Assembly: GCF_020171625.1 (NCBI RefSeq)
Contig: NZ_JAIUZY010000001.1
Span: 124,001-188,000 of the forward strand
Direction: 5' to 3'
Length of the DNA stretch: 64,000 nucleotides
Source of the DNA: Salipiger bermudensis
GTDB lineage: Bacteria > Pseudomonadota > Alphaproteobacteria > Rhodobacterales > Rhodobacteraceae
Position numbers and translations under genes: made by a program. The notes beneath the pieces were generated by a model, which had not been told where the DNA came from, searched no databases, and worked only from the letters and a program-made list of their open reading frames with translations. The number at the start of each line of letters is the position of its first letter. The stretch's first letter is position 1. Below, in pieces: positions 35,672 to 55,247 of this stretch.

Positions 35672-35758
35672 GTGAGGGGGGAGAAGTCGGATGCCTCCGG
35701 CGGGAGTATTTTTTTGACGAAGAGAAGAGGGGGACGGCGTGGCGAGGGCGGCTCGGTG
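35672..35758 (-). repeat. intergenic tandem unit 1 (family 1 repeat)
   Basis: An 87-bp unit with GCCTCCGGCGGGAGTATTT from 35693, then GACGAAGAGAA and GCGAGGGCGGCTCGGTG. It is repeated at 35782-35857. The 449-bp gap 35559-36007 between thiE-like and trmJ contains these two units and no gene. Confidence 0.65.
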
Positions 35759-35781
35759 CGGGGGCCGGCGTTGGGGAGGTG

Positions 35782-35857
35782 GTGAGGTCGGGTGCCTCCG
35801 GCGGGAGTATTTGGGACGAAGAGAAAGTTGCGGCGGTGTGGTGAGGGCGGCTCGGTG
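35782..35857 (-). repeat. intergenic tandem unit 2 (family 1 repeat)
   Basis: A 76-bp near-copy of unit 1, with GCCTCCGGCGGGAGTATTT from 35794, GACGAAGAGAA and GAGGGCGGCTCGGTG. The remainder up to trmJ shows no other recognised element. Confidence 0.65.
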
Positions 35858-36007
35858 GGGACCCGGCGGGGGTGGCGGTGGAGGTCTTTCGGGAATTGCG
35901 CGGGGTCGCCGCCTGTTTCACGGGGTCTCGAAGCGCGTGGCGGGCGATGCCGGCTTGTCCTTGTTTTGCAGGGCGCTTAGGGATGCGTCCGAGACAAAGG
36001 AGAGGCC

Positions 36008-51353: not shown

Positions 51354-52136
51354 TCAGGCGGCGAGGTCGATCCAGACCGGCACGTGATCCGACGGCTTGT
51401 CGCGGCCGCGGATGTCGCGGTCGATCTGGACGTCGGTCATCAGGTCGGCGGCCTGCGGGGTCAGCAGCAGGTGGTCGATGCGGATGCCGTTGTTCCGCTG
51501 CCACGCGCCGGCCTGGTAGTCCCAGAAGGAATAGTGGCCGGGGCCCTGGGTGCGGGCGCGGAAGGCCTCGGTGAAGCCGAGGTTGAGGATGCGGCGGAAC
51601 GCGGCGCGGGTCTCGGGCAGATAAAGCGCGTCCTCGGTCCAGGCCTCGGGCTTGGCGGCGTCCTCGGCCTGCGGGATGACATTGTAGTCGCCCGCCATCA
51701 CCGCCGGCATCTCGCTGGCCAGCAGGTCGCGGGCGCGGGCCTCGAGCCGGCTCATCCATGAAAGCTTGTAGTCGTATTTCGGCCCCGGGACCGGGTTGCC
51801 GTTGGGCAGGTAGAGTCCGCAGAGCCGCACCGCGTGGCTCTCGCCGACGACCGTGGCCTCGATCCAGCGCGCCTGCTCGTCCTCGTCATCGCCGGGCAGG
51901 CCGCGGGTGACATCCTCGAGCGGCAGCTTCGACAGGATGGCGACGCCGTTGAAGCTCTTCTGGCCGTGGGTCTCGACCTGCCAGCCGCGCTCTTCGAAGT
52001 GCTCGCGCGGGAAGGCCTCGTCGACCGACTTGATCTCCTGCAGGAGCGCGACGTCGGGCTGCGCCTCGTCGAGCCAGTCGGTGAGGGCGCCGATCCGCGC
52101 CTTGATGCCGTTGATGTTGAAGGTGGCGATCTTCAT
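51354..52136 (-). CDS. xth: exodeoxyribonuclease III
   Basis: AP endonuclease and 3' exonuclease in base-excision repair, 260 residues. The fold of the exonuclease-endonuclease-phosphatase family is complete: MKIATFNINGIKAR, LQEIKS (metal-binding Glu), MAGDYNVIP, and RIDHLLLT with SDHVPVWIDL at the C-terminus. It is divergent from the repeat-peptide gene with 318 bp between starts. Confidence 0.94.
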   Translation of the reverse strand: MKIATFNINGIKARIGALTDWLDEAQPDVALLQEIKSVDEAFPREHFEERGWQVETHGQKSFNGVAILSKLPLEDVTRGLPGDDEDEQARWIEATVVGESHAVRLCGLYLPNGNPVPGPKYDYKLSWMSRLEARARDLLASEMPAVMAGDYNVIPQAEDAAKPEAWTEDALYLPETRAAFRRILNLGFTEAFRARTQGPGHYSFWDYQAGAWQRNNGIRIDHLLLTPQAADLMTDVQIDRDIRGRDKPSDHVPVWIDLAA

Positions 52137-52263
52137 TTGGCCCTCCGGAATTTGAGCAAGCTATCGCCGAAGCGGCGCTCGGGAGCAAGGCCAAGGCGAT
52201 TTTCGCGCTACGATTCGCGGCCGATTCACCGGCAGAAACCGGGTTTCAACAAGGCGCAAAAAT

Positions 52264-52272
52264 TTATCCACA
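52264..52272 (+). promoter_or_regulatory. DnaA box, perfect 9-mer
   Basis: TTATCCACA, the strong DnaA-binding consensus, in an AT-rich stretch (about 52,240-52,400) that contrasts with the GC-rich genome. The inverse copy is at 52339-52347. The 318-bp gap between xth and the repeat gene holds these two boxes and no gene. Confidence 0.55.
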
Positions 52273-52338
52273 GAAATTATTGTTCTGTGAGCAACCTTGA
52301 ATTGTGTTTTTTTTGTGTCTTTTAGGTTTTGGTCTTCA

Positions 52339-52347
52339 TGTGGATAA
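52339..52347 (-). promoter_or_regulatory. DnaA box, perfect 9-mer, inverse orientation
   Basis: TGTGGATAA, the complement of TTATCCACA, 75 bp from the first box. A possible TATATT -10 element is at 52378-52383, just downstream. DnaA control of the downstream gene is possible; an origin is less likely because no origin-linked genes are near. Confidence 0.55.
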
Positions 52348-52454
52348 CTCTTGTATAACTCAACCTTAGCAAGAAACTATATTGCCAGAAACATGCATTG
52401 GAGGAAACCCTGAGCGTGCCAAAACGCAAACGCTACACCAGGAAGGGTTACCCA

Positions 52455-53222
52455 ATGTCTGCACAACTCAAGCATGAAATCATTGAAGAATTCGCCAACG
52501 ACTTCGGCGGCGACATGTTCGGTGGGGAAGGTGCCTCAATGTTCACCTCCTGCGCCGCTCCCGAGAGCTTTGGCAGCGCGCTGACCGGCGAAGCTGTGGA
52601 TATGTTCACCTCCTGCGCAGCCCCGGTGAGCGGCTCTGCAGCCACCGGTGAGGCGACCGGCCTCTACACCTCCTGCGCCGCACCGCTGACCGGCTCGGCC
52701 GCGACCGGCGAGGCCACCGGCCTCTACACCTCCTGCGCCGAGCCCAAGGCCTCCGAGGCGCTGACCGGCGACGCGGTGGAGATGTTCACCTCCTGTGCCG
52801 CGCCGACCACCGGCTCGACCGCAACCGGCGACGTCGTGGGCCTGTTCACCTCGTGTGCCACCCCGACCATCGGTTCGACCGCAACCGGCGAGGCCACCGG
52901 CCTGTTCACCTCGTGCGCCGAGCCGAAAGCGTCCGAGACCCTGACCGGCGACGCCGTCGAGATGGTCACCTCCTGCGCCGCGCCGACCACCAGCTCGACC
53001 GATGCCGGCGATGCGGTCGAGATGTTCACCTCGTGTGCGACCCCGACCACCAGCTCGGTGGATGCAGGCGACGTGACCGGCCTGTTCACCTCCTGCGCCG
53101 AGCCGAAGGCCACCGCGGCCCTGACCGGCGACGCGGTCGAGATGGTGACCTCCTGCGCGGCACCCCGCGACAGCCGTGCCGTCAACGGTGACGTGACCGG
53201 CTCCTTCACCTCCTGCGCATAA
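52455..53222 (+). CDS. TSCA-repeat protein, putative multi-core peptide precursor
   Basis: A 255-residue protein I do not recognise. A leader of 28 residues (MSAQLKHEIIEEFANDFGG, then DMFGGEGAS) is followed by twelve (M/L/S)(F/Y/V)TSCA motifs, eleven followed by a residue and Pro. The period is 20 residues (21 in the first unit). Linkers end in acidic TGDAVE or TGEATG. The protein stops exactly after the twelfth TSCA. Each motif has the only cysteine of its unit; there are no others in the protein. There is no signal peptide. ATG 52455 has AGGAAGG 8 nt upstream; GTG 52416 in frame would add 13 basic residues. It precedes an unknown protein and an EamA transporter. A modified-peptide precursor is an inference; a metal-binding or structural repeat protein is possible. 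Confidence 0.75.
   Translation: MSAQLKHEIIEEFANDFGGDMFGGEGASMFTSCAAPESFGSALTGEAVDMFTSCAAPVSGSAATGEATGLYTSCAAPLTGSAATGEATGLYTSCAEPKASEALTGDAVEMFTSCAAPTTGSTATGDVVGLFTSCATPTIGSTATGEATGLFTSCAEPKASETLTGDAVEMVTSCAAPTTSSTDAGDAVEMFTSCATPTTSSVDAGDVTGLFTSCAEPKATAALTGDAVEMVTSCAAPRDSRAVNGDVTGSFTSCA
52539..53219 (+). repeat. in-frame 60-bp minisatellite with 180-bp higher order
   Basis: Units start at 52539 (63 bp), then every 60 bp from 52602 to 53142, with a final 18-bp partial unit at 53202. Units 4-6 and 7-9 resemble each other as triplets, and units 10-12 continue the pattern, each triplet opening with TSCAEPKA and LTGDAVE. This implies past 180-bp duplications. Codon-level changes are mostly outside the TSCA motif. 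Confidence 0.85.
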
Positions 53223-53241
53223 GCCAGGGCAGCTATCGCTG

Positions 53242-53271
53242 CGGGCGTCTTATGGGGATGAGACGCCCGCG
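53242..53271 (+). promoter_or_regulatory. intercistronic hairpin after the TSCA-repeat gene
   Basis: A perfect 10-bp stem (GCGGGCGTCT with AGACGCCCGC) and 10-nt loop, 20 bp after the stop. No T tract follows. It likely stabilises the upstream mRNA or causes partial termination, giving excess repeat protein over the downstream proteins. Confidence 0.6.
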
Positions 53272-53307
53272 TGCGGCCGGAAACAGAACGACACAGGGAA
53301 CTCCGTC

Positions 53308-54366
53308 ATGACCAACGTTATCGCACTTCGCCCGAAGGCCCCCGTCGCATCGCAGGATGCCGGCGTCGCAGCGCTCGTGAAGAGCTTTGCCACCAGCCGG
53401 CGGCGAGAGGATGACGTGTTCTGGCTGAAGGAGAACGCCGAGCTTCTGAACATTCTGGAATGCACCGGGACCTACGTGCCCCGGGCCGCGCTCGCGCCGC
53501 TGCGCGGGTTCTACCATTCGGTGGAAGAGCGCATGGCCTTCTTCCCGCAATACTACCGCTTCCTGCTGTCGCTCACCCTCGATCTCGAGGATCTGGGCAT
53601 GGAGGGCGACACCGGGGCCAAGCTGACCGAGCGCGCCGCGCGCCAAGGCTTTGCCGATGCCGAACTGTCGGACCTGCAGCGCATGGAAGCCCGCCGCCTT
53701 CTGGCCCGCCGGGGGCAGGTGAGCGCCGACGACGAGGGGCTGGCCGACCGGCTCCGCGCCTTCTGCGCGCGCTCGCAGACCTTCGCGCTGCCCAACAAGA
53801 AGGCCGCCTACGAGCTGACCCATATCGTCTTCTATCTCAGCGAATATGGCCGTCGCGACCCCGGGCTCGAGGAGGAGGCGATCAACAGCCTCTACTTCGC
53901 CGGAAACCTCGCCTATCTTGACCAGAACTCCGACCTGCTGGCCGAGATCTGCATCGCGCTGCGCTATGCCGGCGAGGTGCCGCCGCCGCTCTGGACGATC
54001 TGGCTCGATCGCGAGACCCACCTCTTCACCGTCGAAAGCGGCGAGACGCTCTCGGTGGCCGACGATTACCACGACTTCCTAGTGTGCAACTGGCACGCCG
54101 CGGTGATTGGCGGCAAACCGTTCCACAAGCCGCTCGACGGCGGGCGGATGCGCTTTGAGCGGGCACAGCGCGTCGCGCCGCTGCGCGAGCTGTCCGAGGC
54201 GCTCTTTGCCGAAGGCTCTGCCCGCAGCACCGACTGGGCCGGAATGCGCGCGCGGATGGGGGCGCGGCTGTCGCCGCAGACCCTCGACGTGGTCGACCAG
54301 CTTGCCGATCATTCGCCGCGCTTCGACGCCTTCTTCGAGGGCTTCGCCCGGGCAGGCAACGCATGA
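53308..54366 (+). CDS. unrecognised 352-residue protein, partner of the TSCA-repeat protein
   Basis: No family is confidently recognised; uncharacterised DUF families with similar neighbours exist in Rhodobacteraceae to my unverified memory. The protein is soluble and mostly helical, with no signal peptide or membrane segment. Notable segments are VFWLKENAELLNILECTGTY (38-57), YELTHIVFYLSEYG (168-181) and DYHDFLVCNWHAAV (253-266). His172, His255, Cys260 and His263 are candidate functional residues. Its stop overlaps the transporter start (ATGA), so it is coupled to export. A maturation or carrier role for the repeat protein is inferred. Confidence 0.7.
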   Translation: MTNVIALRPKAPVASQDAGVAALVKSFATSRRREDDVFWLKENAELLNILECTGTYVPRAALAPLRGFYHSVEERMAFFPQYYRFLLSLTLDLEDLGMEGDTGAKLTERAARQGFADAELSDLQRMEARRLLARRGQVSADDEGLADRLRAFCARSQTFALPNKKAAYELTHIVFYLSEYGRRDPGLEEEAINSLYFAGNLAYLDQNSDLLAEICIALRYAGEVPPPLWTIWLDRETHLFTVESGETLSVADDYHDFLVCNWHAAVIGGKPFHKPLDGGRMRFERAQRVAPLRELSEALFAEGSARSTDWAGMRARMGARLSPQTLDVVDQLADHSPRFDAFFEGFARAGNA

Positions 54367-55247
54367 ACGGGACACGCACAGCCATCGTGGGCGCCGCCCT
54401 TGTCGCGCTCTATACCGGGGCCATCGCCGCGGCGGACGGCATCACCAAGCTCATCGCCGGCGGCTATGCCGCGCCGCAGCTCTTCGCGCTGTCGGCGGGG
54501 CTCGTGCTGCTGATGTCCCTCGGCGCCGCGCGCAAGAACGGCGAGACGCTGCGCACCAGCTGCCGCGGCGCGATGGCGCTGCGGGCGCTGCTCACCGTGG
54601 TCTCGGCGCTGAGCTTCTTTCAGGCCTTCCGCCTGCTGCCCTTCGCCGATGTCTTCCTGTTCATCGCGCTGGTGCCGCTGATTGCTGCCTTGATGTCGGG
54701 CCCGGCGCTCGGCGAGCCGGTGCGCCCGGCGGTCTGGATGGCGCTGCTGCTCGGGGCGGGCGGCCTGCTCTTCGTGATGCCGGCGGGCGAATTCGCGCTC
54801 GATCCGGGCCATCTCTGGGCGCTCTTCGCGGCCTTCACCGGCACCGGCTCGATGATCGCCGCGCGCTACATCGCCCGCATCGAGCGCGTGCCGGCGGCGC
54901 AGGTGTTCTGGCCCAACCTCGCGCTGATGCTGAGCATGGCCGTGGCGCTGCCCTTCGTCTGGCAACCGATGCCGCTGTCGGATCTCGGTTGGGTCGTGAC
55001 CTACGCGGTGTTTCTCTTCGCGGCGCGCTGGCTCTCGGTCGAGGCGCTGCGCCTGCTGCCCGCCTACGTGGCGACCCCGCTGATGAACCTGCAATTCGTC
55101 TGGATGGTGGTGATCGGCTGGTTCGGCTTCGGCGAGATCCCCGCGGTGGGCACCGTTCTGGGCGTCACGCTGGTGGTCGGCTCGGGCCTGTGGCTGCTCT
55201 TCGACGAGGCGGTCACGCAGGAGCGTCGCAGCTCGGCCAACGCCTGA
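54363..55247 (+). CDS. EamA-family (DMT superfamily) transporter
   Basis: A 294-residue permease with ten predicted membrane segments in two EamA halves of five. It resembles metabolite exporters of the RhaT/EamA type: LRALLTVVSALSFFQAFRLL with LPFADVFLFIALVPLI in half one, and VEALRLLPAYVATPLMNLQF in half two. It is translationally coupled to the 352-residue protein by a 4-bp overlap. EamA proteins usually move small molecules, not large peptides, so the cargo may be a small product or a cleaved fragment. Confidence 0.88.
   Translation: MNGTRTAIVGAALVALYTGAIAAADGITKLIAGGYAAPQLFALSAGLVLLMSLGAARKNGETLRTSCRGAMALRALLTVVSALSFFQAFRLLPFADVFLFIALVPLIAALMSGPALGEPVRPAVWMALLLGAGGLLFVMPAGEFALDPGHLWALFAAFTGTGSMIAARYIARIERVPAAQVFWPNLALMLSMAVALPFVWQPMPLSDLGWVVTYAVFLFAARWLSVEALRLLPAYVATPLMNLQFVWMVVIGWFGFGEIPAVGTVLGVTLVVGSGLWLLFDEAVTQERRSSANA

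Follow-up and report, generated by a model that had tools for sequence, protein, structure and literature searches.

The DNA analyzed here (hereafter the window) is a stretch of 64,000 nucleotides from Salipiger bermudensis, in which a gene for a candidate multi-core precursor lies on the forward strand (52455..53222, ATG at 52455 to TAA at 53222). The encoded protein of 255 aa comprises a leader of approximately 28 residues (52455..52538, forward; MSAQLKHEIIEEFANDFGGDMFGGEGAS) followed by 12 units of the type GxxxxMFTSCAxP..., with twelve core pentapeptides, (F/Y/V)TSCA (52542..53219, forward). The TSCA tetrapeptides start at nts 52545, 52608, 52668, 52728, 52788, 52848, 52908, 52968, 53028, 53088, 53148, and 53208 of the forward strand, corresponding to residues 31, 52, 72 ... 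252, and the residue before TSCA is F in eight units, Y in two, and V in two. All 12 Cys residues fall inside TSCA, and the final TSCA forms the C-terminal end. This anatomy was confirmed as described in the first-pass annotation, except that the reported 20-residue period contains one interval of 21, which precedes the ten intervals of 20. Among 20,000 residue shuffles of this protein, the maximum was three TSCA, compared with the 12 actually present. An alternative in-frame TTG at 52398 would lengthen the ORF; the ATG at 52455 is favored as the start because M[ST]AQLKH, the common leader start of same-genus relatives, begins there. Searches of the precursor against Pfam and NCBIfam returned sub-cut-off matches only (best, IQUB 0.0026 and 0.4, respectively).

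Downstream on the same strand lies a gene (53308..54366) for a DUF6902 protein of 352 aa, the putative core-modifying enzyme. Its match to PF21843 (1.7e-159, residues 1-349) is well above the curated cut-off (530.9 bits vs 27), and it also matches PF21836 (DUF6895; 3.7e-21). Its stop codon is overlapped by a gene for an EamA-family transporter (54363..55247, forward; PF00892, 1.5e-13). On the other side of the precursor gene, xthA, encoding exodeoxyribonuclease III (51354..52136, reverse), is a fixed divergent neighbor that is not thought to be part of the system. A phage or defense origin was rejected, as neither the precursor nor DUF6902 matched PHROGs and none of the three genes matched PADLOC (E 0.01).

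Distribution of the precursor-DUF6902 unit

DUF6902 was detected in 108 of 394 Rhodobacteraceae genomes, a sample with nearly one genome per genus. Of 20 genomes from the genus of the window, its own included, 18 have a match. The remaining two (G003 and G007) do have xthA, suggesting a possible loss of the unit. The nearest named record is the DUF6902 protein of Salipiger bermudensis HTCC2601, with 96% identity. We gathered 198 loci (100 from the family search, the best 80 of 378 named records, 17 from the same genus, and the window), which hold 158 distinct DUF6902 proteins when distinctness is judged on the last 250 residues. A position-matrix scan identified a repeat ORF of two or more units in 151 of the 158 loci, mostly less than 150 nt upstream of DUF6902, and four further repeat ORFs were read by eye (L136, L139, L148, and L152), giving 155 in total. 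At the remaining three loci no repeat ORF was found; these are L135, L153, whose DUF6902 diverges most, and L227, truncated at the end of its contig.

The co-occurrence was also observed at the genome level. A repeat profile (A3) of two units, comprising 34 positions and 46 rows, was run against the family genomes with a cut-off of E 0.001. It matched 99 of the 394 genomes, all of them among the 108 with DUF6902, and none of the 286 genomes without DUF6902. The matches arise partly by construction, because many loci in A3 come from these genomes; the absences are unaffected. The nine DUF6902 genomes missed by the profile are the four read by eye, G082 (L153), G330 (L135), G433, and G181 and G363, in which DUF6902 is present in fragments only. 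We considered a plasmid-borne system, which was ruled out for DUF6902 since a tblastn search with the DUF6902 protein of the window found no match among 72,556 plasmid records; its DUF6895 relatives do occur on plasmids. A locus from a record titled Enemella evansiae, which is an actinobacterium, carries the precursor-DUF6902 unit (L232), and the name of this record looks wrong.

Of 141 loci with sufficient sequence, 140 have xthA upstream in divergent orientation. A tblastn match to the EamA protein of the window follows DUF6902 in 119 of 157 loci, within 600 nt and on the same strand (not found in 38). With xthA fixed and EamA recurrent, this is a two- or three-gene unit with a single location next to xthA. 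When neighbors within 4-6 kb were clustered and annotated in part, xthA and EamA recurred; the others looked housekeeping-like by eye, and no dedicated protease stood out among them.

Upstream and intergenic elements

Two exact 9-mers resembling DnaA boxes lie between xthA and the precursor gene, 75 nt apart: TTATCCACA at 52264..52272 (forward) and TTATCCACA at 52339..52347 (reverse). A pair with this orientation and spacing is unique in this genome. Within 350 nt 5' of the precursor, the exact 9-mer occurs on either strand in 92 of 142 loci, most often close to -185 and -110, and in 109 of 142 when one mismatch is allowed; it was found in none of 142 control stretches inside DUF6902, and base shuffles averaged 0.25 of 142. 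This 9-mer is one of the DnaA boxes used for locating Rhodobacteraceae origins, as given in PMC6699656. The idea that the boxes belong to xthA was rejected, as the 500 nt preceding this gene lacked the 9-mer, even with one mismatch, in 22 DUF6902-free genomes (21 usable, with L294 mispositioned at a contig edge). An oriC at this site was rejected as well: over the 64 kb covered, GC skew is mostly positive and falls to approximately zero near 50 kb, with no origin-type switch. A sigma-70 consensus scan of 52137-53330 found no promoter. The distribution of the boxes suggests DnaA control of the precursor promoter.

A perfect 10-bp stem-loop (53241..53270, forward; z -2.3) separates the precursor gene from DUF6902 and is a possible expression-ratio element. 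Stems of at least 8 bp were present in 33 of 145 precursor-DUF6902 gaps vs 2 of 145 control stretches, which makes them a minority feature. Elsewhere in the window, a 99-bp tandem repeat is present in two copies (35686-35881).

Uniform cores within precursors and divergent cores between them

Core statistics were calculated from 1083 units of the 151 precursors found by the position-matrix scan, each with at least two units. At unit positions 8-11, the four residues after F, identity is 0.99, 0.99, 0.97, and 0.97 within a precursor and 0.41, 0.81, 0.37, and 0.45 between precursors. Positions 2-6 ahead of the core show identities of 0.49-0.64 within and 0.31-0.41 between precursors, and G1, F7, and P13 are fairly constant (0.98, 0.90, and 0.84 within; 0.97, 0.85, and 0.74 between). 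The earlier claim of a motif fixed against variable linkers thus stands inside each precursor (97-99%) but not between precursors (37-45%, with one position at 81%). A single core pentamer is used throughout in 106 of the 151 precursors, while the other 45 contain more than one. Examples of mixed precursors are L109 and L224, with FSSGS at the ends and FSTSC inside; L204 and L216 also mix core types (further pairs are FTSGS with FTTSA, and FCSWS with FSSLS).

Altogether, 45 distinct majority cores were observed, the most frequent being FSSGS (27), FTSGS (21), FTSWS (20), and FTSGA (14). TSCA is the majority tetrapeptide in only five of 151 precursors (FTSCA in four and ATSCA in one), and the majority core is Cys-free in 127. 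Position 9 is the most constant core position (S 90%, T 8%, C 2%), with N in one precursor (FTNWC) and A in another (YIAGL). Position 8 accepts T, S, V, I, P, C, M, A, and others, position 10 accepts G, W, S, A, C, T, and L, with Gly in more than half of the precursors, and position 11 accepts S, A, L, C, and M. No core residue is therefore invariant, and TSCA or Cys as an essential core was ruled out. The first-pass annotation had read TSCA as a fixed core whose Ser, Thr, or Cys is modified, had proposed to examine whether it is fixed in homologues, and had named its non-conservation as evidence against that reading; taken literally, this is what the relatives show.

Synonymous sites indicate how this uniformity is maintained. 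Across the 12 units of the window precursor, all differences in the TSCA codons are synonymous (pS 0.41), giving a pN/pS of 0 at positions 8-11, and the corresponding value over the set, calculated without L159 and L171, is 0.11 (pS 0.51). The six positions preceding Phe change freely in the window precursor (pN 0.31, pS 0.51), and the Phe position itself is variable (pN 0.27). Low pN/pS together with high pS means that core uniformity is kept by selection at the peptide level, not just by fresh copying; recent duplication as its sole cause was ruled out, since the units differ at synonymous sites of the core. In a DUF6902 tree built with FastTree (151 rows), the 43 tetrapeptide states require at least 69 changes, compared with a mean of 112 for shuffled labels. 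By this measure, the core tetrapeptide is inherited yet frequently switched.

The architecture around the cores is more flexible. The number of units per precursor ranges from 2 to 20, counts being lower bounds at contig ends or N runs (e.g., L098, L131, L159, and L171). Most core intervals (859 of 943) are 20 or 21 residues, but spacings of 8, 13, and 17 recur, and 12 precursors have some cores less than 15 residues apart (8 or 13). The protein ends exactly with a core in 103 of 151 precursors. In Citreicella sp. C3M06 (L158), TSCA is kept with a period of 13, the flank is altered, and so is F in many units. The conserved feature is uniformity inside each precursor, and this argues more strongly for a defined product than a fixed TSCA would.

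DUF6902 and its DUF6895 relatives

The AlphaFold2 (AF2) model of the DUF6902 protein is confident (pLDDT 93, pTM 0.91) and all helical except for two short strands. Foldseek with this model returned nothing at E 0.001 or better. With VIA-align, the top rows were alpha/alpha-toroid enzymes and thioester domains at Z 8.4-11.1, a range that is no proof of a toroid, as values below about 13 for helical folds may reflect a mere common arrangement. A sequence search of the PDB gave no match to the window protein, and the best profile match had E 0.39 with unrelated names. An hhalign comparison of the DUF6902 alignment (A1) against the DUF6895 alignment (A4) gave a probability of 96.9 and E 1.4e-10. 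Residues E39, Y166, H170, G179, D211, E215, and H274 are invariant in the eleven DUF6895 proteins of A4, and five of them pair with residues also invariant in DUF6902 (A4/A1: H170-H172, G179-G181, D211-D209, E215-E213, and H274-H255). Judged by homology and these shared invariant residues, DUF6902 belongs to the DUF6895 superfamily. K41, E42, N43, R84, R125, and N163 are also invariant in DUF6902 but do not belong to the invariant set of the DUF6895 alignment. When enzyme positions were scanned for covariation with the core, the signals were weak and confounded by phylogeny.

The title of one paper (Shi et al., ACS Catal 2026; cited in PMC13352647) describes a DUF6895 protein as a lasso-peptide epimerase. 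Beyond Rhodobacteraceae, DUF6895 is rare, being above the cut-off in two such genomes of the class sample (n = 385) and three of the phylum sample (n = 398). We viewed 13 DUF6895 loci away from xthA, namely L261-L266, L268, and six plasmid records (L269-L274). A small precursor-like ORF lies upstream, directly or one gene off, in 11 of these 13, as read by eye and with no control; the two loci with the weakest DUF6895 matches have a doubtful small ORF (L265, 9.0e-10) or none (L264, 6.2e-11). Motifs in these ORFs include GPWYAYH, GPWFVL, WTFxSxNYVY, and CDFCLxC, the last in both L268 and the Cupriavidus record L271. The small ORF of L263 has two copies of GPW[YF][IV][YL]K, that of L261 has two of WTF[VI]SxNYVYKGS, and a Streptomyces ORF of this kind contains ...LIGPWYAYHTLEQEQVEQ. 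A further DUF6895 locus, next to xthA (L267), encodes four MTSVA cores. One plasmid-type DUF6895 relative had no match among 50,697 phages. These loci support a general pairing of the DUF6895/DUF6902 superfamily with short precursors.

A proposed pathway and its alternatives

The window has a gene-encoded precursor with an apparent leader and a core that bears the signature of selection, and beside it, by linkage, what appears to be a dedicated enzyme gene, both of which are criteria for ribosomally synthesized and modified peptides (RiPPs). From the observed anatomy, co-occurrence, selection pattern, and homology, we infer that DUF6902 acts on the cores. The multi-core precursor proposed in the first-pass annotation is backed by the co-occurrence with DUF6902, the homogenized cores, and the variable linkers. 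The reading we prefer, whose chances we regard as even, is a multi-core RiPP-like system in which DUF6902 modifies each repeated core, likeliest by L-to-D epimerization, so that one short, lineage-specific peptide is produced in many copies. Each core, usually of the form F-x-[S/T/C]-x-x, would be presented to DUF6902 by the leader, by the recurrent flank G-[DE]-x-[VT]-x-[MLA], or by both, and the enzyme would modify a residue in every copy. The linkers would then be removed, perhaps by house-keeping proteases, and the modified cores would survive because D-residues resist; the released peptide might be exported by the EamA protein where this is present, and might serve in signaling or kin recognition. 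Points that weigh against this reading are that no dedicated protease stood out among the partly annotated neighbors, that 38 of 157 loci gave no EamA match just downstream, that three DUF6902 loci have no repeat ORF, that 45 precursors mix core pentamers, that covariation of enzyme and core was weak, that AF2 draws the precursor as a beta-solenoid, and that the well-described epimerase MslH has a different fold.

Epimerization is considered the likeliest reaction because DUF6902 is homologous to DUF6895, with its reported epimerase, and because no single side-chain chemistry would suit so broad a core alphabet. With no side chain common to all cores, a backbone reaction is favored over azole, thioether, or dehydration chemistry, and position 10, which is Gly in over half of the precursors, would not be the general modification site. 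The conserved His, Asp, and Glu of DUF6902 could, by analogy, support acid/base chemistry like that of MslH. The mass-shift test by mass spectrometry proposed in the first-pass annotation would be blind to such a reaction.

The same multi-core precursor could instead be served by a DUF6902 that performs cleavage, cyclization, or a mass-changing modification at position 9, where almost every precursor has S, T, or C. We hold this to be less probable than the preferred reading but quite possible. The toroid enzymes and thioester domains at the top of the VIA-align rows would fit it, with the caveat on Z values given above, as would the six DUF6902 invariants outside the DUF6895 invariant set; however, the N of FTNWC and the A of YIAGL imply that hydroxyl or thiol chemistry at this position cannot be universal. 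An unmodified multi-copy signal peptide, with DUF6902 as a dedicated binding or processing protein, is improbable in our view. Many identical, lineage-specific copies do resemble fungal Kex2-processed repeat proteins, mating factors included, according to PMC7329392, but the invariant His, Asp, and Glu of DUF6902 are common to a family with a reported epimerase.

Selection for identical residues at fixed positions would also be expected if the precursor were a structural repeat protein, such as a beta-solenoid with residues stacked in ladders and DUF6902 as its chaperone or partner, and AF2 indeed draws two strands per unit (mean pLDDT 67.5, approximately 80 in the C-terminal half; pTM 0.66). 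This explanation is unlikely. Although the window precursor itself is regular, the rung-length regularity of a solenoid is not seen across relatives, whose cores are spaced by 8, 13, 17, 20, or 21 residues and lie less than 15 apart in the 12 precursors mentioned; L158 holds TSCA at a 13-residue period, two-unit precursors exist, and DUF6895 relatives accompany small ORFs of one or two units. Furthermore, AF2 is documented in PMC11795689 to give confident false beta-solenoids for repeats, and Foldseek of the precursor model (best E 2.2) found no convincing solved relative. The one Cys per unit of the window precursor would suit a Cys-rich metal- or redox-storage protein, the former having been named as an alternative in the first-pass annotation; with Cys-free majority cores in most homologous precursors, this role is largely refuted and very improbable.

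A broader version of the preferred modified-core reading is speculative and rather unlikely as a whole. It would make the unit a family-wide, vertically inherited pheromone-like system, in which a short D-amino-acid peptide serves as a lineage mark, the promoter with paired DnaA boxes ties its production to the cell cycle, and DUF6895/DUF6902 form a new all-alpha class of epimerases.

Relation to known systems

Multi-core graspetides and cyanobactins carry several cores per precursor and depend on ATP-grasp or PatA/PatG enzymes. Unlike in these systems, neither ATP-grasp nor PatA/PatG was noticed among the recurrent neighbors, as far as these were annotated. Repeated cores on one precursor are shared with the fungal Kex2-processed repeat proteins and dikaritins, whose cores are diverse among species and 22% of which have a nearby DUF enzyme gene (PMC7329392). 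The fungal system differs in being eukaryotic, with a signal peptide, Kex2 sites, and DUF3328, whereas the present one is bacterial and has DUF6902. The lasso-peptide epimerase MslH is described as having a calcineurin-like fold with two His/Asp pairs and Ca(II) (PMC10406935). His/Asp acid/base epimerization is the chemistry proposed for DUF6902 as well, but its AF2 model is all-alpha and lacks the MslH-type fold. In literature on lasso epimerases, RiPPs of Rhodobacteraceae or roseobacters, and multi-core precursors, the titles and abstracts of the matches listed contained nothing on this system. In the literature searched, DUF6902 or DUF6895 is mentioned in one paper, and six core strings had no occurrence. 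The system looks like a pathway for ribosomal peptides that has not been described before.

If this is true, roughly one in four of the sampled Rhodobacteraceae genera would have this class of ribosomal peptides (108 of 394 genomes), encoded at a constant location next to xthA and not in a mobile cluster. The barely known DUF6895/DUF6902 superfamily would gain candidate natural substrates in an adjacent gene, and the 45 majority cores could serve directly as a specificity panel. That the cores are uniform within a genome but change between genera raises the question of what recognizes the peptide.

The closest comparison is with the DUF6895 loci, which share a homologous enzyme, the invariant His, Asp, and Glu, and a small precursor-like ORF 5' of it in most loci viewed. 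The core-like stretches in their ORFs number one or two and are unrelated in sequence, and several of these loci have an extra partner gene, whereas loci of the window type combine up to 20 short cores with one 350-aa enzyme. A second, unlike DUF6895 unit was observed in a same-genus genome (G015; L268 6860-8595, reverse strand), consisting of a CDFCLxC... ORF, a partner gene, and DUF6895, and the same order is found in Cupriavidus (L271 3087-4885). On plasmids of Kitasatospora (L272 3707-5687) and Streptomyces (L273 2953-5723), a small ORF ending with LLLSPxxP..K is followed by a gene of 231-248 aa with no Pfam match and then by one or two DUF6895 genes.
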